37,939 nucleotides of DNA from positions 1 through 37,939 of the forward strand of contig JAQYEZ010000061.1 of the NCBI GenBank assembly GCA_028723425.1. Reading direction: 5' to 3'. Below, one piece after another: positions 20,817 through 37,300 of this stretch. This stretch comes from Peptoniphilaceae bacterium. Lineage in GTDB: Bacteria > Bacillota > Clostridia > Tissierellales > Peptoniphilaceae. Position numbers and translations under genes: made by a program. The number at the start of each line of letters is the position of its first letter. Position 1 is the stretch's first letter. The notes beneath the pieces are model-generated. The model made no database searches, was not told the origin of the DNA, and saw nothing but the letters and a program-made list of their open reading frames with translations.

Positions 20817-22583
20817 TTAATCATCTATATATAATTGGGCTTGAGTTTCAAACATTTTTTTATAAAGGCCGTCTGTTTCCATAAGTTCTTTATGGTTACC
20901 ATTTTCAATAATATGACCATCATCACAAACAATTATCCTATCAGCATATCTTGTTGATGAAAGCCTGTGAGAGATGAAAAGAGAAGTATGACCCTTTGAA
21001 ATCTCTAGCATATTTTCAAAAATATCTTCTTCACTTCTTGGATCCAGTGCGCTGGTTGGCTCATCCATAATATAGAACTTACCCTTATGGACCATGGACC
21101 TTGAAAGGGCAATCTTTTGACCTATACCTCCAGAAGGCTCTATTCCTTTATCATCAAAAAGTGTTGTAATATAGGTATCCAAACCCTTGGGAGTCTTTTT
21201 TACCCAATCATATATGCCCAAAAGTTTTAAGCTCTCATAAATTTCTGAAATTTCAGCATCTGTTATAGCAGAAGATTTTTTCCCACTTATATTTTCACTT
21301 AGCTTAAATGGAAATAGCCTAAAATCTTGGAAGGTTGGCGATAAAATCTTATAGTAATCACTTGTTTTTAAATCTTCTAAATTTACTCCATTTATCAAGA
21401 TCGACCCCTTGGTCGGCTCATAAAATTTACACAAAAGCTTAACAATAGTAGACTTACCTGCCCCATTTTTGCCTACTAGGGCAACAGTTTCACCCTCTTC
21501 TATTGTAAAGGATAAATCTTTTAAGATGTAATTTTCGCTTTTTGGATATTTGAAATATACATGGTCAAATTCCACTTTAATTAAGGGTTGCTCAATCTTT
21601 TTATAAGGCTTATTAGCATCAAATCTTTCTTTTAGATTCATAAAATCAAAATAAGCATTTAGTTTTTCATTTATTGATATAAGTGAAGCATAATTTTTTT
21701 CTAGCAAGTTTAGTGTATTTATAAGCTGTATAATGGAGTTAAAATATAGGGTAAAATCTCCAAGACTAATAGTTTTTTCTACCATTCTTTTTGTCAAATA
21801 AAACAAAGCCCCAATAATACCAAAGTTTGATATTATATTCATAGCCCCAGTGTATAAGCCATTTCTATTAAAATATAGGCTAGATCTTTTTATCATAGAA
21901 TCCATAAAGCCCTTTGACTTTTCAAGAATCATCTCTTCTCCCTCATAGATTTTTAAGTCTTTAGAATACTTATAATCTTGGGAAAATTCTATAAAATATC
22001 TATAAATTCTATTGTCTGGTATGTCACTTTTTTGTCTAAAAAGTTCATTTTCCTTTAAAAGCCTTACAAATATCCTATTTACAAAAACTATGGCAAGACC
22101 TAATATTGGCAATAATATATTTAGCCTTATAAGTACAAATACCGCAATTAAACCTGTTACTAGAGCAGAGCTTAACATATAGAGGTTTTCATATAGACCA
22201 AATAAGTCAAAAACAGAATCATGGGCCGCTTCTAATTTATCTTGTACAAGTTTGCTATCGCTTTCTTCTATAGGAAGTCTAATGGACTTTTCACTTAATT
22301 CAAAAAGAAGTTTGTCAGTCATAGCCTCAAAAACCAAGTTAAAATAAGTATCGTAATATTCTTTCATTATGACATTTATAGTATTTAAAACTAAGACCAA
22401 AGCAAGAATTTGACCTATGAAAGAAATATTATGACTTGTTTGGAAAGCCTCAATAATAAGTTTTGGAGCAAAAATATTTATAAGAGGTAGAACTCCAACA
22501 ATTATAGAAAAGGCACAAATTTTAAGGCTAAAAAAGGGGAAGTCCTGGTCAATTCTCCTAAAGAGTTTTACTATATTTTTCAT
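20817..22583 (-). CDS. ABC exporter half-transporter, second subunit
   Basis: A 588-residue fusion of a six-helix exporter domain (about 1-330) and an ATPase domain. The ATPase shows Walker A VGKNGAGKST (about 368-377), Q-loop SPTFQDFRLF, Walker B FYIMDEPTSALD and H-loop FISHRLSSTR. The signature reads PSGGIGQ instead of LSGGQ, so one ATP site of the complex is non-canonical. Its start overlaps the stop of the upstream ABC gene by 4 bp, so the two are made together as a heterodimer. No C39 or other peptidase domain is present. The substrate is unknown; peptide or drug export are both possible. Confidence 0.88.
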   Translation of the reverse strand: MKNIVKLFRRIDQDFPFFSLKICAFSIIVGVLPLINIFAPKLIIEAFQTSHNISFIGQILALVLVLNTINVIMKEYYDTYFNLVFEAMTDKLLFELSEKSIRLPIEESDSKLVQDKLEAAHDSVFDLFGLYENLYMLSSALVTGLIAVFVLIRLNILLPILGLAIVFVNRIFVRLLKENELFRQKSDIPDNRIYRYFIEFSQDYKYSKDLKIYEGEEMILEKSKGFMDSMIKRSSLYFNRNGLYTGAMNIISNFGIIGALFYLTKRMVEKTISLGDFTLYFNSIIQLINTLNLLEKNYASLISINEKLNAYFDFMNLKERFDANKPYKKIEQPLIKVEFDHVYFKYPKSENYILKDLSFTIEEGETVALVGKNGAGKSTIVKLLCKFYEPTKGSILINGVNLEDLKTSDYYKILSPTFQDFRLFPFKLSENISGKKSSAITDAEISEIYESLKLLGIYDWVKKTPKGLDTYITTLFDDKGIEPSGGIGQKIALSRSMVHKGKFYIMDEPTSALDPRSEEDIFENMLEISKGHTSLFISHRLSSTRYADRIIVCDDGHIIENGNHKELMETDGLYKKMFETQAQLYIDD

Positions 22584-24334
22584 ATTTCCTCCCTGTAATT
22601 TTTGGCTTGAATTTCATAAAGCTCTCTATACTCTTGGTTTGTTCCCATAAGTCCTTGATGACTATCATAGCCTTCTATCTTTCCATCTTTTAAAAATATA
22701 ACCTTATCGCAAAATCTAGTCGAAGCTAATCTATGAGAAATAAAGATAGAAGACTTATCCTTGTACAAATCATTATAAAGAAGATAAAGTTCTTTTTCTG
22801 CCAAGGCATCAAGCTGAGCTGTCGGCTCATCAAGAATTAAAATCTTTGCCGAGGCCTTATTTAAAGCACGAGCCAAAAAAATCCTTTGCTTTTGACCACC
22901 AGATAGGTCTACTCCATTTTGATCTATAGTTCTTAGCAAGTATTGGTCTTCGCCCTTTTTATACTTACTTATAAGCTCATCAAGTTTTGTTTTCTTATAT
23001 ATTTCAGAAAGATCCTTATCCTTAGTATTTAAGGTAATATTTTCCTTTATGGAAAATGGCAAAAGTAAGGAATCTTGGAAAATTGCTGCAACTATCTTAT
23101 TATAAGCTTTGCCAAATTCCCTTATATTTATTCCATTTAAAAGAACTTCTCCTGATGTAGGCTTATAAAGACCACACAAAATTAAAGCAAGAGTAGACTT
23201 ACCTGCCCCATTTTCTCCAACCAATGCCAAAGATTCTCCCTCTTTTATAGTTAGATTTATATTTTTCAAAACTTCCTTATCAGAAGAAGGATAAGAAAAG
23301 GATACATTTTTAAATTCTATGGTATAGGTATCCAAATTTTCTATATCATAGGAAATATTTTGGCCATCATCTTCTTTATTATTTAAAATCTCAAAGAAAT
23401 ATTTAAAAGAAGCAAAAGAATTTCTAAAGTTTGATATTTGCCATTTGATTTGGTCTCCAAAATTTATAAAGGAAAAAATTGCAGTAAAAAACATAAAGAA
23501 ATCGCCCATATCAATTTCATTCTTTAATATAGATACCACCAACCAATAAAATATGCAGCCATCCCTAAAAAGACTAATTAATTGAGCAAGACTAAGTAGC
23601 CTAATTCCCTTTTTATTTATAGCCTTAAAACCGTCTATTCTTTCCTTGTTTTTTTCCATGTAATAAGACCTAAATATAGATAAAAAATCATAGACCAAAA
23701 TATCTTGTTTGGATTGGGAATTTCTTAGTTCATAATTAAGCTTAGAAAAAATATTCCAATTGTTAGATTGTTCATCATAATAAGCGTGGTATAAGCCAGT
23801 AATTTTGTAGGTTAACTTAAAAGAAATTATAGAAGTTATCCCAACAATTAGCAAAAGCAAGGGTCCCATCATAGAAAAAATCCAAATAAAACCCGCCAAG
23901 GAAAATAAAATTCCAAATAAATAAGGTAGATTCATCATAATACCACCAGCACCAGAAAATGGACTAATACAAGCGTTTTTGGCATTATTTATCTTTTCTA
24001 TCTCCTCTTTGTCTTTTTGTTTATCAAAATCTAGGTACAAAGAATAGGATATTACCATCCTTATAAACCTATACCTAATATTATTCATTCTCATCCTGTA
24101 ATTGTTCATAATAAATGAATCAAAAAAAGAAGTTAGGCTTGAAAAAATAATTAACAGCACAAAAAATACAAGAAAAGAAGAAAGAGGATTATTAGCATTT
24201 TTTAATATGTAAGCTGGAGAAACTATCCAGATAAAAGGACTAAGTCCCATAAATATTCCATAAAGGCCAATCAGGACAAACATGAGCGGTTCATACTTGG
24301 CCATTAACTTAAACAAAAATTTCAACTCTTTCAT
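22580..24334 (-). CDS. ABC exporter half-transporter, first subunit
   Basis: About 584 residues: a membrane domain with some six helices (1-315) and an ATPase domain with Walker A VGENGAGKST (about 372-381), signature VDLSGGQKQR, Walker B ILILDEPTAQLD and H-loop FISHRLASTR, all canonical. The open frame reaches a GTG at 24358 with no ribosome site. The GAGAGG lies 9 nt before the ATG at 24332-24334 (MKELKFLFKL), so I start there. It overlaps its partner gene by 4 bp. Its consensus LSGGQ would complete the canonical site together with the partner's Walker motifs. Confidence 0.87.
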   Translation of the reverse strand: MKELKFLFKLMAKYEPLMFVLIGLYGIFMGLSPFIWIVSPAYILKNANNPLSSFLVFFVLLIIFSSLTSFFDSFIMNNYRMRMNNIRYRFIRMVISYSLYLDFDKQKDKEEIEKINNAKNACISPFSGAGGIMMNLPYLFGILFSLAGFIWIFSMMGPLLLLIVGITSIISFKLTYKITGLYHAYYDEQSNNWNIFSKLNYELRNSQSKQDILVYDFLSIFRSYYMEKNKERIDGFKAINKKGIRLLSLAQLISLFRDGCIFYWLVVSILKNEIDMGDFFMFFTAIFSFINFGDQIKWQISNFRNSFASFKYFFEILNNKEDDGQNISYDIENLDTYTIEFKNVSFSYPSSDKEVLKNINLTIKEGESLALVGENGAGKSTLALILCGLYKPTSGEVLLNGINIREFGKAYNKIVAAIFQDSLLLPFSIKENITLNTKDKDLSEIYKKTKLDELISKYKKGEDQYLLRTIDQNGVDLSGGQKQRIFLARALNKASAKILILDEPTAQLDALAEKELYLLYNDLYKDKSSIFISHRLASTRFCDKVIFLKDGKIEGYDSHQGLMGTNQEYRELYEIQAKNYREEI

Positions 24335-24579
24335 TATTAACTTCCTCTCCTTTTCCACAAAATCAAAGCTTTACTGTAAAAAATCACAAAAGCAATTGAT
24401 TTATGAAAATTTATATAAATTTATCCTTTCTTCAATAATACTATATTTAAAATAATTTAACAAGAAAATCCTACAAAGTATAAATTATTTGAAATAATTT
24501 TTTATATAGGCTTGTTTTTTATTTTTAACTATGGTATCATAATGGTATAAAAGGTTTTCACATACATATATATCTAAAG

Positions 24580-26964: not shown

Positions 26965-28560
26965 TTAAATATCTTTATAGTCCTCTATATCAATAATTTT
27001 ATCAAAACTTGCTAGATACTTTTTATCTTGATTATGTGTAATTACTATTCTTGTTAAGTCAGATAAATTTCCTATTAAATCTTCTATAGTTTTGGCACTT
27101 ACTGGGTCAAGACCACTTGTAGGTTCATCAAAGATTATTACTTTTGCTCCCTTATAAAGAGCTCTTGCTAATTCTAGTTTCTTTTTTTCTCCCCCTGATA
27201 GACTTTCATTTGATAAAATCAAATCTTTTTTACTTTGATAGACATAGCTTAAATCCACTCTTTCTATGATTTCCTCTATCTTTTGTAAATCTATATCATC
27301 ACTTCCCATACTTATATTGTCTAATAACTTATCTTTAAAAACAATGGAATTTTGTGGTATATAGTAAATTAGCGAATAAATTTCTTTTTCTTTGAAACTT
27401 TTGAAATCACCATTTTCAAATTTTATTTCTCCTAAATAATTATCATTTATTTTCATCAAAATCTTTGCAAGGGATGACTTTCCTGATCCTGATTTGCCTA
27501 TTATGGCATAGGTTTTGTTTTTTTCTATATCTAGGTTTAAATTATCAAAAATTTTATTGTCTCCATATGAAAGAGATAAATCTCTTATTTTTATATCAAG
27601 TCTAGGCAAGCTTTCTTTTCCTTGTATCTTTGTTTTGTCTGGTATCTTTTTTACAACCATATCTTTTATTTTTCTGGTTGATATGATTTGAGTTAGATTT
27701 CTAAAAGCTTCTGACATGGCATTGGTTGAGATTGATACTAAGGTTAGAGAAGCTAATAAATCAGATAGATTTATTATATTTGCTTTTACCAAAAGACTGC
27801 CAACATATATTATTAAAAGATAAGATAGAAGGTTTAGAGCAAAAAGAATTTCATATAACATTGAATTTGTAATATTTAATTTATTTCTTGCTTCTAGTAG
27901 GTCAGAATTATTTTTATCAAATCTTTTCAAAAAGTATCCTATATTGTTTGATTCTTTTATAACTAAGTAGCCATCCAAAAGTTCATTCAATTTATCTATG
28001 TATTTTGAATATTTATTAGATCTTGATACTTGAAGTTTTGATATTACTTTTGAGAAAGCACTACTAATAAAACCTGGTAAGATTACAAAGGCAATTGTTG
28101 CTAGAAGTATGTATGGATGAATCTTATATAAACCAATTATATAAACAAGGGTCCTACCAATACCTGTAAGTGCTGTTGGTAGAGTTGTTAGATAATCAAG
28201 TCTTAATTGGTCTACATTTTGGTCTATATCTGCTAAAAATTCCCCTTTGTTTTTCCTGTAAAAAAGGGAGGTTTTAGATAAGAAGATACCTTCTATATAA
28301 TCATGCCTTAAATCTTGGCATATATTTTTAGTAAATGAGTTGGAATTTTTTTCTGATATGTAAAAAAAGATACAAGCTAATATGATAGAGGCTATAGCCG
28401 AAAAGATAATATTTTTTACCTCTCCTGAATTCTTCCCTGTAAATATGTCTACAAGTTTGGCACTTCGAGTAGTAAACAAATAAATAAAGTATACTTCCAA
28501 AATCCCAAATATTACTGATAATATTAAATTTTTCTTAAATTTTAGTATGTATTTTTTCAT
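26965..28560 (-). CDS. RiPP-cluster ABC exporter (membrane domain plus ATPase)
   Basis: A 531-residue half-transporter: about six membrane helices in residues 1-310 and an ATPase domain with Walker A GKSGSGKSS, Q-loop YIPQNSIVF, signature ESLSGGEKKK, Walker B VIIFDEPTSGLDP and H-loop IVITHNQDKK. It probably works as a homodimer, since no partner is adjacent. It lacks the N-terminal C39 cysteine protease domain that many peptide exporters use to cut a double-glycine leader. In this cluster the JAMM protein is the only candidate protease. Its start codon overlaps the stop of the radical SAM gene by one base, and it ends at the shared terminator. I infer that it exports the mature modified peptide. 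Confidence 0.85.
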   Translation of the reverse strand: MKKYILKFKKNLILSVIFGILEVYFIYLFTTRSAKLVDIFTGKNSGEVKNIIFSAIASIILACIFFYISEKNSNSFTKNICQDLRHDYIEGIFLSKTSLFYRKNKGEFLADIDQNVDQLRLDYLTTLPTALTGIGRTLVYIIGLYKIHPYILLATIAFVILPGFISSAFSKVISKLQVSRSNKYSKYIDKLNELLDGYLVIKESNNIGYFLKRFDKNNSDLLEARNKLNITNSMLYEILFALNLLSYLLIIYVGSLLVKANIINLSDLLASLTLVSISTNAMSEAFRNLTQIISTRKIKDMVVKKIPDKTKIQGKESLPRLDIKIRDLSLSYGDNKIFDNLNLDIEKNKTYAIIGKSGSGKSSLAKILMKINDNYLGEIKFENGDFKSFKEKEIYSLIYYIPQNSIVFKDKLLDNISMGSDDIDLQKIEEIIERVDLSYVYQSKKDLILSNESLSGGEKKKLELARALYKGAKVIIFDEPTSGLDPVSAKTIEDLIGNLSDLTRIVITHNQDKKYLASFDKIIDIEDYKDI

Positions 28561-29840
28561 TAATAAATCTCTCCGATTCTAATTAAATCTCTGATAATAT
28601 ATGCTCTAATTCTTCTTTTTTCTTCGCAATGTTCTAGTTTATTATCCTTATTATAAATTAATAGTGATGCTGGGCACTCACTGCACATGTCTTTAATCCA
28701 ACATTTAGAACATTCACTTATATAATAGGTCTTCAAATTATCGAAGAAATCAGCTAGTTGATCATAATTGCTATAGAAAATATTGCTTTTGTTTAAATCA
28801 CCAATTATATATTTACTATACCCCATAAAGAAATGACAAGGTATAATTTTACCAAGAGGTGTAATCGCAATAGATTCTAGGCCAGCGTCACAATAATTTC
28901 TTTTATATTCTTTTCCAAGAACAGCCCTTAAAGTCGCTAATTTTACTTGCTTATTGTAACTTATCTCACTATTATTTATACACTTTTCATCAATAGAATA
29001 CTCACTATCACCTATGCAATCAGAAATGAATATTTTTATATCACCATATTTGTTCTTTAAAAATGATTCAATATCTGTCTTTGAAATATTATTATCTATA
29101 TGTAACTTGGTATATGTTACTTCTAATAATTGGATATTAACATTATGCCTTCTTAACAAAAAAATAGCATCATTCACTTTATTAAACGATCCTTCACCAT
29201 TTTTAAATGGTCTTAAAATGTTATGTATATAGCTTTCTCCATCTATACTTATAGTAACATAAAAATTATTTTCATTAAAAAATTCTGCTATCTCTTTTGT
29301 TATCAAAGTCCCATTAGTTACTATTGTAAATCTAGGAATAGTTTTTATTAACATTGAATTATATAAGAACTCGAATTCTTTCACTGTTTGCTTTATTGTT
29401 TCAAAACTTAATAGAGGTTCTCCTCCAAAAAACATTACAGTTCCAACTTTGCTAAAGTATTTTGGAATAATTTTTGATACTAAATAACCTATTTTTTCAG
29501 GCTTGATATCATTTTTCTCTTGATTGTAATCTCCTCCATTGGCATAACAATATTTACAAGCTAGATTGCATTTATTATTCAGAATAATTTCTAATTTAGA
29601 TAAATAATCTGTTCTTTTTAAATTTGTGCTTTTCTTATGTTTCTTTGAAACAAATGTATTATTTATATAGTTTTCGAAACTTTTTAATTCATAATTTGTC
29701 ATATCATCTAATTTATTAATAATACTTTGGAATTTAGTATAATTACTTTTATCCAACTTCTTTATGCTCAAATTATTTTTGTAAAATACATAAAAATAAT
29801 TGTTATTTTCTACAATCAAAAAATCACTTTTCTTTAACAT
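28560..29840 (-). CDS. Radical SAM/SPASM peptide maturase
   Basis: A 426-residue enzyme. The radical SAM motif is C91-x3-C95-x2-C98 (NNKCNLACKYCY), preceded by an 80-residue N-terminal segment that could act as a leader-binding domain. FFGGEPLLSF follows the cluster loop. The SPASM region begins at CDAGLESIAITPLGKIIPC and ends with CSKCWIKDMCSECPAS and HCE, enough cysteines for two extra Fe-S clusters. Enzymes of this build install thioether, C-C or related crosslinks in ribosomal peptides. The substrate should be the 44-residue peptide encoded at 30340-30474. The start overlaps the JAMM gene by 17 bp, and AGGAG precedes it. Which bond it forms cannot be read from sequence. Confidence 0.9.
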   Translation of the reverse strand: MLKKSDFLIVENNNYFYVFYKNNLSIKKLDKSNYTKFQSIINKLDDMTNYELKSFENYINNTFVSKKHKKSTNLKRTDYLSKLEIILNNKCNLACKYCYANGGDYNQEKNDIKPEKIGYLVSKIIPKYFSKVGTVMFFGGEPLLSFETIKQTVKEFEFLYNSMLIKTIPRFTIVTNGTLITKEIAEFFNENNFYVTISIDGESYIHNILRPFKNGEGSFNKVNDAIFLLRRHNVNIQLLEVTYTKLHIDNNISKTDIESFLKNKYGDIKIFISDCIGDSEYSIDEKCINNSEISYNKQVKLATLRAVLGKEYKRNYCDAGLESIAITPLGKIIPCHFFMGYSKYIIGDLNKSNIFYSNYDQLADFFDNLKTYYISECSKCWIKDMCSECPASLLIYNKDNKLEHCEEKRRIRAYIIRDLIRIGEIY

Positions 29841-30285
29841 TTTTAATGTCTCCTAATTTCCTATATTTTAACACTTCATCATAATAATCAATTTGATATT
29901 TTATGCAATTTGTAACAAAAAATATATATTTTGATAAGCCAAGTTTTTTCCCTAATTTTATGAAACTATTATTAAAAGCATAATCCTGATTGGAAAAAGA
30001 AATACAAGCATCTTTTAAATAATAAGGATGTGTGTGTATAATCATTGGTATATAATTATTAATGCTACACCATTTCAAAAAATAATAGGACTCCATTTTA
30101 GGTATTATTAGATTAGGAGTTTTTTTTGAATTCAAATTGTTATTTATGATCTCCTTTTTAAATTTAATTTCATAATTATATTTTTGGCTTTCAACAGCTA
30201 TAAAATATCCATATTCAATGAATTTATTATTTTCTATTTTTTCTTCTAAAATATTAATTATTGTTTCTAAATTTTTAATATACAT
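29824..30285 (-). CDS. JAMM/JAB-fold putative metalloprotease of the RiPP cluster
   Basis: A 153-residue soluble protein without close named relatives that I can recall. It has the JAMM zinc pattern: a possible glutamate E24 in FIEYGYFIAV, H84 and H86 in IIHTHP, then S98 and D101 in SFSNQD, i.e. H-x-H-x11-S-x2-D. The usual spacing is nearer 7-10, so the loop is slightly long. JAMM proteins are zinc isopeptidases or proteases. Here I infer leader-peptide removal, because the exporter has no peptidase domain. It is second after the precursor and overlaps the radical SAM gene by 17 bp. Its ATG has no clear ribosome site and lies inside one arm of an inverted repeat (30279-30304). Confidence 0.65.
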   Translation of the reverse strand: MYIKNLETIINILEEKIENNKFIEYGYFIAVESQKYNYEIKFKKEIINNNLNSKKTPNLIIPKMESYYFLKWCSINNYIPMIIHTHPYYLKDACISFSNQDYAFNNSFIKLGKKLGLSKYIFFVTNCIKYQIDYYDEVLKYRKLGDIKNVKEK

Positions 30286-30304
30286 AATAAGATAACAGGA
30301 ATAG
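30279..30304. repeat. Inverted repeat arm, downstream of the precursor gene
   Basis: This arm pairs with 30501-30526 in inverted orientation, matching 24 of 26 bases; the core is AATAAG, one mismatch, then TAACAGGAATAG. It covers the start codon and upstream region of the JAMM gene. The two arms enclose 196 bp that contain exactly the precursor gene and its ribosome site. Confidence 0.8.
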
Positions 30305-30339
30305 GCTTTGCTAATTAAGTTTAATTAAATCAAATAAAA

Positions 30340-30474
30340 TCAGTCTTTTGTCCCTGAAGTACCACCGCATCCGATTCCGCAAGAAGATAGCTCTGTTTCA
30401 AGATTATCTAATTCTTTTTCTATATCATTGTCAATTTCTATTTCTTCAAATTTAATTTCTTTTATATTATCCAT
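30340..30474 (-). CDS. RiPP precursor peptide (44 residues)
   Basis: A small gene with GGAG placed 6 nt before the ATG. The product starts MDNIKEIKFEEIEIDNDIEK, has an acidic, lysine-containing leader of about 31 residues (12 Glu or Asp-rich turns, no signal peptide), and ends in SSCGIGCGGTSGTKD. The two cysteines (C32, C36), the Gly-rich stretch and Thr/Ser acceptors make CGIGCGGTSGTKD the likely core. It lies directly upstream of the JAMM, radical SAM and ABC genes on the same strand, the normal position of a radical-SAM RiPP precursor. The leader lacks a double-glycine site before the cysteines; a GG pair occurs only inside the core. I know no characterised peptide with this core. Confidence 0.82.
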   Translation of the reverse strand: MDNIKEIKFEEIEIDNDIEKELDNLETELSSCGIGCGGTSGTKD

Positions 30475-30500
30475 AATATTCTCCATTTTTTTATGTTTGT

Positions 30501-30526
30501 CTATTCCTGTTAGCTTATTACGTATA
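30501..30526. repeat. Inverted repeat arm, upstream of the precursor gene
   Basis: Partner of the arm at 30279-30304 (24 of 26 bases). In a transcript running through the precursor gene this arm would lie in the 5' leader and could pair with the start region of the JAMM gene. Confidence 0.8.
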
Positions 30527-30697
30527 CATCATTTTAATAAATAGAAGTCATATCTAAAACATAGTATAAACTTATCTAGTATAATATTTTTACTATCATC
30601 TAATATATAATATATATTATGCTTACAAACCAATCTCATAGCTGATTCTTTATTGGATATAATCTTATTAATTTTTTCCTTCTTCTGATTTACTCAT

Positions 30698-30829
30698 TCA
30701 GTCTTTCTTATTTCTTTGATATTTCCCAAATTGTTCTGTATAAAATTTACCAGCTTTAGCTCTAAGTAACTTTAGTGTTAATGTTTCTATTTTAGTTGTA
30801 TAGTAACGTTCATAACATCCATTTCTAAA
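30698..30829 (-). pseudogene. Remnant of an IS256-family transposase
   Basis: A 43-codon open stretch without a start codon reads FRNGCYERYYTTKIETLTLK and continues to GKFYTEQFGKYQRN before a stop. This matches the conserved N-terminal part of IS256 (mutator-type) transposases, whose consensus runs roughly NGYYERDYTTKVGTLTLKVPR then GKFSTELFERYQRN. The rest of the transposase and the terminal repeats are not visible. It is a decayed fragment between the signal-like peptide gene and the RiPP precursor, a sign that mobile elements have visited this island. Confidence 0.7.
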
Positions 30830-30850
30830 TTACCTTTTCTTTTTACACAA

Positions 30851-30985
30851 TTATATGTACTCTATCTCTGATATTTTACATAAATCTATGGTATAATCTT
30901 CTATATCGTTTAAAATATTTGCAAAATTTATTACTAGTACAAGCGATAATATACATATTATTATTTTTTTCTTCTTTCTTCCCAT
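30851..30985 (-). CDS. Small signal-peptide-like protein, putative signalling peptide precursor (44 residues)
   Basis: A 44-residue frame starting MGRKKKKIIICILSLVLVIN: six basic residues, a hydrophobic core of about 15 residues, then an acidic tail ending CKISEIEYI. AAGGAG lies 6-7 nt before the ATG. A good promoter (31015-31043) stands about 23 nt further upstream, so this looks like a real gene rather than chance. It is divergent from an HTH regulator of PlcR-like length. Known PapR precursors (48 residues: export signal plus a C-terminal active heptapeptide) have the same layout, so I infer a secreted pheromone whose active part would be C-terminal. A small membrane protein of other function is the alternative. 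Confidence 0.55.
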   Translation of the reverse strand: MGRKKKKIIICILSLVLVINFANILNDIEDYTIDLCKISEIEYI

Positions 30986-31014
30986 ATAAATCTCCTTAAA
31001 TTTTTGTTAATTAA

Positions 31015-31043
31015 ATAATATACTTAGAAATATATGCTGTCTA
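31015..31043 (-). promoter_or_regulatory. Promoter of the small signal-like gene (and possibly the RiPP operon)
   Basis: -35 TAGACA (31038-31043), a 17-bp spacer and -10 TATTAT (31015-31020). I find no equally good promoter directly upstream of the precursor gene and no terminator between 30850 and 30530. Transcription from here may therefore continue into the RiPP genes. Confidence 0.6.
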
Positions 31044-31058
31044 TCCAAGATTTATCCA

Positions 31059-31087
31059 TGTACATAAGTATTTATATATGATATAAT
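31059..31087 (+). promoter_or_regulatory. Promoter of the HTH regulator gene
   Basis: -35 TGTACA (31059-31064), inside the palindrome ATGTACAT (31058-31065), then a 17-bp spacer and -10 TATAAT (31082-31087). It is back to back with the divergent promoter, with 15 bp between the two -35 boxes. The repeat TATCCA occurs at 31042-31047 and 31053-31058, 11 bp apart. Confidence 0.55.
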
Positions 31088-31106
31088 AAATTTTTAGGTG
31101 ATTATA

Positions 31107-31961
31107 ATGAGAAATAAAAAGCTTCTTTTTGCTAACTTCTTGAAAGAAATAAGAGTTAAAAATCATCTTACTCAAGAAGAGTTATCTGAGAAAACTTTTA
31201 TTAACGTAAAAACTATTTCCAACATGGAAAATGCTAAGGTTAATTTTGATTTTGATAATTTAGAAATTCTATCTAGCGTTCTAAAAGTAGATTTTATCGA
31301 AAAATATTTTGAAGTTTTTTATGGAGATTCTAATGATATTGATTCTATAATTAATTCTTTAAATTCTAAAGATAGGATAAATGGTTATTCTCAGCTAAAA
31401 GAAATTGATGATTTAACAAGAATAAAGAATAGCACACAAAGAAGTATTGTTAAATTAAAATCTGAAAAGTTAATACTTTTCCTAAAAAGTATACAGGAGA
31501 AAGATAACATCCAAAAAAGAAGAGAGCTTATTGTTGAGGCTTTAAATGTTGATGGTTATTTCGATTTTAATGATTTAAAATCAAATTACTATGAAGATAT
31601 TGATTACAGGATACTGATGAATTACGCTTTGACATTGAGTAATAATAAAAGATTAATCATATATAAATTTATAGAAGAGTCCATTAGCCCCAAAAATAAT
31701 TTGTACCCTATCTTGTGTAACAATATAGCTAATACTTATCTTATATCAAATAATAACGAAATAGCTTTAAGGTACATAAATATGGCAATTGCCACAAGTT
31801 CTTCACCTTCACCAGTTATGTTCTATACTAAAGGATTAATATTAGAGAATTTGTCACTGCCTTATAAAAAGTACATATATATGTCTCTTGAACTTGCTAA
31901 AAATGACAAAGATACCTATAACCATATTTTAAAGTTAGTAAATAGTAGAAAACAAAAGTAG
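31107..31961 (+). CDS. HTH regulator with TPR-like C-terminal domain (PlcR/Rgg-like)
   Basis: A 284-residue protein. Residues about 5-60 are an XRE-type helix-turn-helix (LKEIRVKNHLTQEELSEKTF then NVKTISNMEN). The remaining 220 residues are helical, with TPR-like repeats such as ILCNNIANTYLISNNNEIALRYINMAIA. This build and length fit RRNPP peptide-sensing regulators (PlcR has 285 residues; Rgg is similar). The open frame begins at a GTG (31098), but AGGTG lies 6 nt before the ATG at 31107, so I start there. It is divergent from the 44-residue signal-like gene and the RiPP operon, which it probably controls. That control and any peptide ligand are inferred. Confidence 0.8.
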   Translation: MRNKKLLFANFLKEIRVKNHLTQEELSEKTFINVKTISNMENAKVNFDFDNLEILSSVLKVDFIEKYFEVFYGDSNDIDSIINSLNSKDRINGYSQLKEIDDLTRIKNSTQRSIVKLKSEKLILFLKSIQEKDNIQKRRELIVEALNVDGYFDFNDLKSNYYEDIDYRILMNYALTLSNNKRLIIYKFIEESISPKNNLYPILCNNIANTYLISNNNEIALRYINMAIATSSSPSPVMFYTKGLILENLSLPYKKYIYMSLELAKNDKDTYNHILKLVNSRKQK

Positions 31962-34334: not shown

Positions 34335-35753
34335 TTAAATATATATCTTGTTGTAAGTCTTATACTCTTCCCTATTTTCTGTATCTGTTATAAGAAAGGT
34401 CCTCTTACTATCCTCAAAGTTTTTAAGGATTAGCAGTCTAATTTTATTATCAACTGACATTAAATTAGAATCAATTAAAATTACCCTATGATCAGCCACA
34501 AGGACTCTTCCCAAGGCAATCCTATCTATTTGGCCTCCAGAAAGGTCATTATTAGTAAGTCTATGTCTTGATTTTAAATCTTCTAGACCTAGAATTTTTA
34601 TAAGCTTATCAAATATTATGGCATCCTTATCAAGGGTAATATTTTCATATAAGTTTTCTGCTAATACTCTTGACCTTTCTAAGATTAAAGGATAATTTTT
34701 ATCAATTGAAATTTTCTTTAGTAGGCGAGTTTTACCACTACCATTTTTACCAATCAAAATATTTATATGCCCTATTTCTAGGCTATTAAGTATTTGATTT
34801 ACTTCTTCCATATTTGTATTAGCATAAGAAGCTTGAAACTTATAAATAATCTTATCGTTTAAGGAATCTAAATTTACTTTAAGTTCGTTGGATACTACTA
34901 TAAAAGTAGATACATAGGTAGATAAGTCATTTATTATAAAGCTATAGCTTATTAATAAGGCTATATCTCCTACTGAAAATGACTCAAAATAAATAGCTGC
35001 CAGTAAAACTATAACAACGTTTGAATCTACAAGAATTTGATTAATAGTATTTATCAAGATATTAAATTTACCATAGTTTAATTTATTGCTCTTATTATTC
35101 TTTAATTGTTGATTATAACTACTGTAGTAATCTTCCCCGCTCGCTTCTAAGTGTATTTTTCTGGATTTTATTATTATATCCTGATATATATTTATAAGGC
35201 TTGATTCACTTTCTCTTATTCTATACTTCTTATCATAAAGTTTATTTCTCAAAAAATTTAATATAAAGAAAATTAAAATAGGAACAATTAAAAGTATTAA
35301 GGCTATGTAAATATTTATAGTTGCAATAATAAGAAAGGCTATAATAGATCCTACAAGACTACAAAATGTATCTATACAATATGATATTATTCCAACAATT
35401 GAGCCAATATCATTCTTTATTACGTCCATAAAATTTTGACTCATTGCTTCTGATATATACTTACTTTCTAAGCATTTATCGATAATTTTCTCATACATAA
35501 ACTTAGACCATTTATGTTGTGACCTAATGTCTATATTGGCTCCTATCTTTATAAGTACTTGTCTAGAAAGAAAAAGAGCTGAATATATAAAAATAATAAC
35601 TATTAGCTTATCTTTATATTTTGTATCAAAATATAGCTTTAGAAGGTAGGCCATTAGCAAGGGAATATTGTGTGCCAAAAGCCAAATAGCAATATCTGAG
35701 GCAAAATAGGCTGGGTATTCTTTTATCATATTTTTTATACTAATTTTTTCCAA
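34335..35753 (-). CDS. ABC exporter half-transporter with degenerate ATPase
   Basis: A 472-residue protein, short for an exporter half (usually 570-600). The membrane domain spans about 1-300. The ATPase has Walker A IGKNGSGKT and a consensus signature NNDLSGGQIDR. Walker B reads VILIDSNLMSVD, so the catalytic glutamate is serine, and the H-loop histidine is missing (FLITDTENR). It cannot form a normal hydrolysis site by itself, but its LSGGQ can complete the partner's. It overlaps the partner gene by 14 bp, so they form a heterodimer. The compact ATPase (about 150 residues) suggests loss of peripheral loops. Substrate unknown. Confidence 0.82.
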   Translation of the reverse strand: MEKISIKNMIKEYPAYFASDIAIWLLAHNIPLLMAYLLKLYFDTKYKDKLIVIIFIYSALFLSRQVLIKIGANIDIRSQHKWSKFMYEKIIDKCLESKYISEAMSQNFMDVIKNDIGSIVGIISYCIDTFCSLVGSIIAFLIIATINIYIALILLIVPILIFFILNFLRNKLYDKKYRIRESESSLINIYQDIIIKSRKIHLEASGEDYYSSYNQQLKNNKSNKLNYGKFNILINTINQILVDSNVVIVLLAAIYFESFSVGDIALLISYSFIINDLSTYVSTFIVVSNELKVNLDSLNDKIIYKFQASYANTNMEEVNQILNSLEIGHINILIGKNGSGKTRLLKKISIDKNYPLILERSRVLAENLYENITLDKDAIIFDKLIKILGLEDLKSRHRLTNNDLSGGQIDRIALGRVLVADHRVILIDSNLMSVDNKIRLLILKNFEDSKRTFLITDTENREEYKTYNKIYI

Positions 35754-37275
35754 GACTAATCACCTCATCTGCCCTATCAATAATTCTTTTTTCATGACTT
35801 ATAATAATTATTATCTTTTTTAGATTTTTGGCTAAGTCAAAAAATTTGTCGCATTTATCATCTTCAAGTCCTAAAAATATCTCATCCATAATTAAAATAT
35901 CTTTGCTAGATTTTAGGGTTTTTATAAGATACAAGCTTCTATATTCTCCATTAGATAATTGAGATAAAGGCGTATTAAAACTTTTATTTATTGAAAATTC
36001 CCTAAGTAGCTTTATAGACTCACCATCTTTTACAATTACATCTTCTACAGTCTTCTTATTATCTAAATCAAGCCTTTGATCAATGTATTCTATCTTTCTA
36101 TTTATTTCATTTTTCTTAAAATTTTTTATATCAATTCCGTTATATCTTACAAAACCATCAGAAGGATCAAAAAGTCTACATATCAAATTAATAAGTGTTG
36201 ATTTGCCAGATCCTGATGGACCTTTTAGCACATATATTTTCTGAGAAAGTTCCATCTTGTAATTGTCAAAAATTTTCTTATCCCCAAATGAAAAACTAAG
36301 CTTGTCTAGGTCAATTGTCTCAAGTTTTTTATCAATAGTCTTAGGACCGTAACTTATATCTTTTAATCTTAATACCTTAACCAATCTTTCTTTTGATAAT
36401 TTAATATTGGGCACAGTTTCCAATTTTAACCTAATTTCCATAATTGGATCTTCTATCATTTCTATATAGTAAATAAAGAGATACAAGGCTCCTATTGAAA
36501 TCAAATTCTTTGGTATAAGGAAAAAACCTAAAATCATTGCGGCTATTTTCATAGAAGTAAAAACAAATATTGAACTTAGCCAATACTCATAAGATATAAA
36601 ATTTGATACTAAGTCAAAATCAAAATAAGTATCTATTGCTTTTCTTAATCTACTTACTAAAAATTTATCTTTTTTTATAAAATAGAATTCTTCAAATGTC
36701 ACAAAAGTTTCATGAAATATGCTTATCATTTTATCAAAAGTATTTTTTGTATTCTCAAACTTAACATAAGAGCTTGCCTTGATTTTATTAAATAAGACAA
36801 ATAAAATTAACAACATTGCTATATATACTATAGAAAAATATGAAAACTTGCTTATTGAAACAATAAATATACCACAAAGCATCAAAAAATTCTTTATTAT
36901 TATTGTTAAAAAATTTATATAAAAATCTATAAGGACATCAATATCATTATTTAAATTTAACAATCTTCCTTCTTCTTCCTTCACAAGGTCCAGATATGAA
37001 CAAAAAAGTAGTTTCTTAGCTATGGTTTTTTTCATTTCATAATCTAATTCAGAAGTAAGATATAAAGTAAGCAAATTATCAAATATATTGAGTATAAGCT
37101 TAGAAACAATTAAGCCAATAATAATTAGAACAATATCCTTTAATATATTTACATTAGAAATATTATCAATAAATTTTGCTATGTACACTGGATAAGCCAC
37201 CATAAGGATAGAAATTGCAATTAAAAATATACCATGAAAAACAATTGCCACTTTTTTCTTAAAATCAATTTTCAT
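35740..37275 (-). CDS. ABC exporter half-transporter with intact catalytic ATPase residues
   Basis: About 511 residues: a six-helix membrane domain (1-310) and an ATPase with Walker A GPSGSGKST, Walker B ILIMDEIFLGLED (catalytic Glu present) and H-loop IIIISHEKR. The signature is degenerate (LSNGEYR). Together with the neighbour it makes one canonical ATP site (its Walker motifs plus the neighbour's LSGGQ) and one dead site, as in known heterodimeric exporters. The frame opens at a GTG (37284). The GGTGG fits the ATG at 37273-37275 (MKIDFKKKVAIVFHG), which I choose. A duplicated copy of this ribosome site and ATG lies 25 bp upstream. Confidence 0.82.
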   Translation of the reverse strand: MKIDFKKKVAIVFHGIFLIAISILMVAYPVYIAKFIDNISNVNILKDIVLIIIGLIVSKLILNIFDNLLTLYLTSELDYEMKKTIAKKLLFCSYLDLVKEEEGRLLNLNNDIDVLIDFYINFLTIIIKNFLMLCGIFIVSISKFSYFSIVYIAMLLILFVLFNKIKASSYVKFENTKNTFDKMISIFHETFVTFEEFYFIKKDKFLVSRLRKAIDTYFDFDLVSNFISYEYWLSSIFVFTSMKIAAMILGFFLIPKNLISIGALYLFIYYIEMIEDPIMEIRLKLETVPNIKLSKERLVKVLRLKDISYGPKTIDKKLETIDLDKLSFSFGDKKIFDNYKMELSQKIYVLKGPSGSGKSTLINLICRLFDPSDGFVRYNGIDIKNFKKNEINRKIEYIDQRLDLDNKKTVEDVIVKDGESIKLLREFSINKSFNTPLSQLSNGEYRSLYLIKTLKSSKDILIMDEIFLGLEDDKCDKFFDLAKNLKKIIIIISHEKRIIDRADEVISLGKN

Positions 37276-37300
37276 ATTTACCACCAGATAAAATCTTCAT
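37265..37300 (-). CDS. Possible 11-codon leader ORF overlapping the ABC start
   Basis: ATG (37298-37300) preceded by GGTGG opens MKILSGGKYEN and stops with TGA at 37265-37267, just inside the ABC gene. The 15-bp block holding ribosome site and start codon (37271-37285) is a direct repeat of 37296-37310. Translation of this short frame could couple to the ABC gene. It may also be only a recent duplication. The 37311-37476 gap also holds a perfect 8-bp hairpin GGGTAGAA/TTCTACCC (37322-37340); I see nothing else in it. Confidence 0.3.
   Translation of the reverse strand: MKILSGGKYEN

Follow-up and report, generated by a model that had tools for sequence, protein, structure and literature searches.

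A stretch of 37,939 nucleotides from a Peptoniphilaceae bacterium (contig JAQYEZ010000061.1 of assembly GCA_028723425.1; the whole stretch is called the window below and belongs, as contig C61, to a genome of 1.9 Mb, whose host is taken as an Anaerococcus) carries a compact group of genes that we read as a cell-density-regulated radical S-adenosylmethionine (SAM) operon for a ribosomally synthesised and post-translationally modified peptide (RiPP), the product of which would be a small streptosactin-like sactipeptide; the chances of this reading stand about even. The genes and their conservation and the JAMM-like and PlcR-like folds predicted for two of the encoded proteins are shown here, and the maturase appears to share a broad clade with GggB.

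Gene order and conservation

In their order of transcription the minus-strand genes encode a 44-residue precursor (30343..30474), a 153 aa JAMM-fold metalloprotease-like protein (29824..30285), a 426 aa radical SAM/SPASM peptide maturase (28560..29840) and a 531 aa ATP-binding cassette (ABC) exporter (26965..28560), the JAMM and maturase frames overlapping by 17 bases and the maturase and exporter frames by 1 base. Ahead of the precursor lies a further minus-strand open reading frame (ORF) of 44 aa (30851..30985), a signal-peptide-like candidate pheromone precursor, and a helix-turn-helix (HTH) regulator gene of the PlcR type, with a region resembling tetratricopeptide repeats (TPR), diverges from the operon on the plus strand (31098..31961, the likelier start being the ATG at 31107), the two start codons being separated by a 121-bp region. 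The original prediction had described a RiPP-type cluster with a Cys/Gly-rich precursor, a SPASM maturase and an exporter on one strand, and every part that it named is present where it had been placed.

The order of regulator, signal-like ORF (here 51 aa), precursor, JAMM protein, maturase and exporter is kept in genome AGMB09787, and the comparison of neighbourhoods that had been suggested as a check did find a maturase homologue accompanied by both precursor and JAMM gene. The ratio of nonsynonymous to synonymous substitutions (dN/dS) between window and AGMB09787, calculated by the NG86 method with partly saturated dS values of 0.9-2.2, is 0.14 for the precursor, 0.25 for the JAMM protein, 0.20 for the maturase, 0.10 for the exporter and 0.16 for the regulator. 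Among 2958 six-frame ORFs (80-300 aa, loci L001-L124) the pattern H[TSN]H[PCAG]-x6-12-SxxD is found 6 times, always in copies of the two JAMM proteins, and a looser form with the Glu added and the Pro dropped gave 7 matches. Since the gene order is shared, dN/dS is low and the JAMM pattern is rare, the cluster is more than a chance assembly.

Of the 31 Anaerococcus genomes compared (G000-G030), two have a complete maturase, that of the window and AGMB09787, at 62% identity. In genome G029 (locus L037, 8180-11087) the regulator and an intact exporter remain, but only the final 88 codons of the maturase, its exporter and regulator being 92% and 90% identical to those of AGMB09787 with open frames; neither a precursor nor a JAMM match was found there and no signal ORF was seen. 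This locus resembles an immune non-producer. A decayed copy of the cluster is also present in G023. A Tissierellia metagenome-assembled genome (MAG; G087) encodes a maturase and an exporter that are 39% and 44% identical to those of the window, precursor and JAMM gene being unseen on a contig of only 4.9 kb with a 100-N run upstream. Plasmid matches to the maturase comprise 68 records, every one below 60% identity, and in viral contigs 3 loci matched it at 30-31%; the JAMM protein matched nothing in either the plasmids or the viral contigs.

The AGMB09787 cluster is flanked by transposase-like fragments (L035 5544-6760 and 11575-12233), presumably IS30- and IS200-like, which suggests mobility. 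The window has an insertion of about 280 bp separating the signal ORF from the precursor (region 30495..30850, no strand), which AGMB09787 lacks; parts of this insertion recur in other genomes of Anaerococcus (matches of 111-136 bases at 68-77%), a 28-29-bp piece of it is listed eight times across five genomes, and it appears to be a decayed mobile or repeat element within the operon.

Precursor, maturase and exporter

The second ATG (30474), which GGAG precedes by six bases, is the start of the 44-residue form of the precursor; counted from the first ATG, the full ORF has 48 codons and a stop (30340..30486 in the ORF listing), and the AGMB09787 precursor shares the start codon position of the shorter form. 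It may be divided into a leader MDNIKEIKFEEIEIDNDIEKELDNLETEL, a core SSCGIGCGGT and a tail SGTKD, and is 75% identical to its counterpart in AGMB09787 (...LSSCGKACGGTKNTED). There the core reads SSCGKACGGT, with CGKACGGT in place of CGIGCGGT, and the five positions after CGGT are variable (SGTKD in the window, KNTED in AGMB09787). Rings are proposed between C32 and G35 (A35 in AGMB09787) and between C36 and T39. Position 35 is Gly in the window and Ala in AGMB09787; since Gly has no beta-carbon, a bond at 35, if this residue is the acceptor, must be to the alpha-carbon, and the bond type is thereby open to direct testing. The computed [M+H]+ minus four hydrogens is 1325.5096 for SSCGIGCGGTSGTKD, 837.2865 for SSCGIGCGGT and 736.2389 for SSCGIGCGG, the leader boundary in each being a guess.

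The maturase, expected to be a radical SAM/SPASM enzyme, contains the Pfam domains Radical_SAM (1.2e-17) and SPASM (2.6e-5), with cysteines at C91xxxC95xxC98 and later ones at 317, 335, 377, 380, 386, 389 and 405. A SPASM radical SAM maturase adjoining a Cys-bearing precursor is the arrangement of a sactipeptide system. The suggested placement in a SPASM phylogeny, a quick tree of 51 rows hand-picked from 135 with long branches and no bootstraps, puts the maturases of the window, AGMB09787 and G087 in a clade (98) within a clade of 19 rows (Shimodaira-Hasegawa-like approximate likelihood ratio test, 96), which also holds the seven streptosactin maturases used, two others from Anaerococcus, a multi-precursor group of the Ruminococcus type and five other rows. 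The maturase thus appears to share one broad clade with GggB, though as a separate branch, and is 26% identical to the maturase of the streptosactin-type locus L190. A scan of genome contigs with the single maturase sequence gave no match; an alignment scan by two short patterns kept 80 of 120 relatives and is so incomplete.

Other maturase loci were observed in these genomes. Anaerococcus G010 carries a streptosactin-like cluster without JAMM gene, in which a GggB-like maturase (L147 4487-5776, 239 bits) stands with an ABC gene and a 31-aa candidate precursor ...LCTNQSHACGAGHSPS (L147 5812-5907). AGMB09787 has a second GggB-like maturase (L148 5312-6518, 169 bits), accompanied by two ABC genes and the candidate precursor ...SNCGVHKTGIDVEK, and a Ruminococcus MAG (L047 6535-9104) has six similar precursors, e.g. 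...EAPAFGIICGGGCWGIGCAF, ahead of a single maturase that also falls in the broad clade. Contig C30 of the window's own genome (L149 4331-5957) bears a six-Cys SCIFF-like precursor and its maturase, by eye an ordinary locus of the ranthipeptide type.

The exporter consists of ABC_membrane and ABC_tran domains, and Pfam lists no C39 peptidase domain in it, in agreement with its earlier description as peptidase-less. It stays intact in G029, whose biosynthetic genes are lost, which suggests protection against the product, then a narrow bacteriocin, and makes the exporter a possible immunity factor. Two more pairs of ABC exporter genes lie close to the cluster (34335-37284 and 20817-24358).

The JAMM-like protein, the regulator and the signal-like ORF

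The JAMM protein matches none of the Pfam families, JAB/MPN models included, with a limit of E 1, and has no NCBIfam match and no sequence match among solved structures below E 0.4. Its AlphaFold 2 model (predicted local distance difference test, pLDDT, 64.8; predicted template modelling score 0.65) matches mainly JAMM/MPN proteins in the PDB, the best being BubCD, so that the predicted structure of this 153-aa protein is of the JAMM fold, as had been proposed from sequence. The motif consists of E24 (chosen by eye), H84-T-H86 and S98-N-Q-D101, and E24, H84, H86, S98 and D101 are all kept in the window and AGMB09787 proteins, which are 64% identical. In a profile comparison Prok-JAB rows reached 0.8% probability and RadC-type rows 17.6%, the latter alone giving the motif register. 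A profile of the two proteins weakly matched G247 and G974, where Pfam recognised PriA helicase and an NAD(P)-binding/NmrA-like protein, and both were dropped. JAMM peptidases with known substrates cleave after a C-terminal Gly and trim ubiquitin-like proteins, and many MPN proteins are structural; no gene for a ubiquitin-like protein, E1 or E2 was noticed in the window by eye.

The regulator (HTH_3, 4.2e-10) gave an all-helical AlphaFold 2 model (pLDDT 70.6), whose best PDB match is the PlcR-PapR7-DNA complex 3u3w (E 5.3e-5), with 2qfc also matched over the full length; PlcR structures alone pass E 1e-3. The model suggests an HTH and a TPR-like C-terminal domain as in RRNPP regulators of the PlcR type, and RGG_Cterm (TIGR01716) is without match in the window's genome. 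The identity is 54% in AGMB09787 and G029. The adjoining ORF has a basic N-terminus, a hydrophobic stretch and a tail ...IEDYTIDLCKISEIEYI, with AAGGAG before its ATG, and TIxLC is common to it and to the counterpart in the same place in AGMB09787. Its dN/dS of about 0.73 is uninformative, and since its identity is also low the case for it rests on position and architecture. The PlcR/PapR-like pair once proposed is supported as a PlcR-type regulator beside a signal-like ORF, and a promoter of its own for the signal gene is unproven: 28 promoter-like matches were found against 34.1 expected in shuffles, with no excess, and signal ORF and precursor are just 88 bp apart in AGMB09787. Of several A/T-rich inverted repeats, none was assignable as an operator shared with the window.

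Proposed function and known relatives

The chemistry, cleavage site, signalling and activity deduced from these data would be as follows. The signal ORF product would be exported, trimmed and re-imported, and would bind the PlcR-type regulator to switch on the divergent operon. The acidic leader would bind the precursor to the SPASM maturase, which would join both core cysteines to alpha-carbons three positions further along (C32 with G35, C36 with T39) and so create two adjacent, unnested four-residue rings. The JAMM protein, a putative zinc peptidase with a deubiquitinase-related fold, would be a dedicated precursor protease and would cut off the C-terminal tail at Cys-Gly-Gly(-Thr) or beside it, which is slightly preferred to removal of the leader. 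The ABC protein would export the product and protect the producer, and the product would inhibit close relatives. The full proposal, in which a radical-SAM RiPP system under quorum control of the PlcR type has taken on a JAMM peptidase as its follower-peptide protease and the conserved Cys-Gly-Gly is the site where the tail is cut, is unlikely; if true, this would to our knowledge be the first JAMM-processed RiPP.

Several observations weigh against the streptosactin-like reading and its JAMM step. The maturase scores 98 bits against the NCBIfam model of GggB (NF050038, cut-off 650) and 164 bits against that of PapB (NF047865, cut-off 340), so that the bond type may differ. The exporter reaches 160 bits of the 750-bit cut-off for GggC (NF050039), virtually equal to its CydC-type score of 158, and stands no nearer to the exporter of L190 (27% identity) than to those of L039 (27%) and L040 (30%); the AGMB09787 exporter is alike (161.5 and 160.5 bits), and the L190 control, also without a listed C39 domain, passes with 824 bits. 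The Cys spacing of streptosactin is two residues longer than that of the window. The JAMM model is middling, with its loop 88-100 below pLDDT 50 and a best Foldseek E of 3.7e-3 (none below 1e-3), and its H-x11-S spacing is longer than the x7 of 27 motif-bearing ORFs drawn from 30 loci (L152-L181). TM-scores of the regulator against PlcR are just 0.31-0.38, with Z equal to that of unrelated TPR proteins, and the signal ORF is just 23% identical between the two genomes. Should T39 be a ring acceptor, cleavage directly behind Gly-Gly would break that ring. The streptosactin and Miniphocaeibacter loci, tail-less and without JAMM gene, fit a link between tail and JAMM protein, but this link has exceptions, since tailed candidate precursors without an adjoining JAMM gene occur in G010 (...ACGAGHSPS), the second AGMB09787 cluster (...NCGVHKTGIDVEK) and Ruminococcus (...CWGIGCAF).

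The JAMM protein could instead be the cytoplasmic leader peptidase of the same operon, in the role that C39 domains of other exporters have in removing leaders, the tail staying or being trimmed elsewhere. RiPP clusters commonly have one dedicated protease each, the exporter is without a listed C39 domain, the JAMM gene, conserved at 64%, has the precursor on one side and the maturase on the other, and the tailed precursors without JAMM point the same way, so that leader removal is a real possibility, if short of even, though the leader end ...LETEL-SSCG lacks the Gly favoured by JAMM peptidases and streptosactin (GGG) loci manage without one. Since the streptosactin exporter likewise lacks C39 and its loci lack JAMM, the protein may do something else, such as tail removal, and the idea that a metalloprotease replaces C39 is one reading only. 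All five motif residues being kept in both proteins makes it very unlikely that the JAMM protein is idle or non-proteolytic, as a precursor chaperone, maturase partner or immunity protein, despite its unusual spacing, the structural role of many MPN proteins and a partner-like overlap with the maturase frame; an immunity role is further disfavoured by G029, which has no JAMM match yet retains exporter and regulator.

It is somewhat unlikely that the maturase forms thioethers to a beta- or gamma-carbon, as in ranthipeptides, or another bond, so that the product would not be a sactipeptide. The PapB score is joined here by 134 bits for the SCIFF maturase model, far under its cut-off; the AGMB09787 maturase gives 155 bits for PapB and 94 for GggB, a true GggB just 83 for PapB, and the control maturase of L190 passes the GggB cut-off with 750 bits. 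Against this stand Gly35, the streptosactin-like core and a tree in which the maturase falls on the side of GggB. A peptide that serves as a secreted signal or in metal or redox chemistry in place of an antibacterial one, with regulator and short ORF forming no quorum pair, is distinctly unlikely. The weak conservation of the ORF, promoter matches at chance level, the low TM-scores of the regulator and an activity that is a prediction all favour it; PlcR structures alone reach significance for the regulator, however, the exporter outlasts the biosynthetic genes in G029, and complete clusters in 2 of 31 genomes with two decayed copies are patchy like bacteriocins.

A RiPP without described kin was not upheld, as maturase tree and core lead to the streptosactin side of the SPASM RiPPs, the exporter adding little; the system is undescribed in so far as no described class reached its curated cut-off. 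The core, noted at first as new, repeats the two C-G units of streptosactin, though CGPSHSCGGG itself is absent. Among the matches listed from the open-access literature no JAMM protein in a RiPP cluster was found, and a prior description is possible; in the available parts of PMC12982422, PMC11778925 and PMC12339860 the word is that of a drug target, a piece of an author's name and one term in a cited title. This suggests that the protease class is new among RiPP clusters described in that literature, which for RRNPP in Anaerococcus offers nothing; the accessible portions on Anaerococcus and sactipeptides include SCIFF-type clusters in pig isolates, and PMC7738495 was also drawn on in part. 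Overall, the cluster suggests that Anaerococcus, too, has quorum-controlled radical-SAM peptides such as are known in streptococci, under another type of regulator. The cutting of small peptides from their precursors is little understood, and here one small candidate enzyme is paired with a 44-residue substrate.

With the PlcR-PapR system of Bacillus the window shares regulator length, predicted fold and an adjoining small secreted-peptide-like gene, whereas identity is 14-18%, TM-scores are low, and genus, target genes and peptide tail differ. The JAMM protein shares predicted fold and E-HxH-SxxD residues with BubCD, Cap3, Pyrococcus furiosus JAMM1 and RadC, but stands alone, with a longer H-S spacing and no Pfam match. 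PapB/freyrasin maturases give the best NCBIfam score, but the cut-off is missed and the window precursor is without the Cys-x3-Asp repeats that mark PapB/freyrasin precursors. Miniphocaeibacter massiliensis (L049 7681-9239) has a 23-aa candidate precursor ending ACAGIGCGGC, a 29% identical SPASM maturase and an adjoining ABC gene, whereas the precursor has no tail, the locus no JAMM motif, and no divergent HTH-TPR gene was noticed. The streptococcal CGG and CGx radical-SAM RiPP subfamilies are named but uncharacterised in the available text of PMC13361665, and their likeness is the CGG core motif implied by name alone, member sequences not being identified by name.

Streptosactin itself, as given in the accessible part of PMC12445099, is NASCGPSHSCGGGR, with alpha-thioethers Cys25-Ser28 and Cys31-Gly34 according to excerpts of PMC8172795 (one passage prints Cys15). 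In the family of genome G478, taken as Streptococcaceae since it holds streptosactin genes, 21 of 335 genomes match the maturase with E no higher than 1e-20, and 15 of 26 loci from it (L186-L211, about 1.5 kb read per side) have a precursor ending in CGPSHSCGGGR or CGPSHSCGGGG. The JAMM motif is found in none of these 26 loci and, after one chance match was dropped, a JAMM match in none of 333 genomes of the family. Streptosactin loci differ in having no JAMM gene, no C-terminal tail on the precursor, an Rgg in place of a PlcR-type regulator and a CGPSHSCGGG core where the window has CGIGCGGT. Common to both are a short precursor with two C-G units near its C-terminus and the C-x-x-X unit twice, a SPASM maturase apparently in one broad clade, an ABC exporter without C39 domain, an adjoining HTH-type regulator frame (by eye) and a short signal peptide, a candidate one in the window and shp in the streptosactin cluster (PMC12445099, accessible part), so that the parallel drawn to the streptococcal shp/rgg layout in a different lineage stands.

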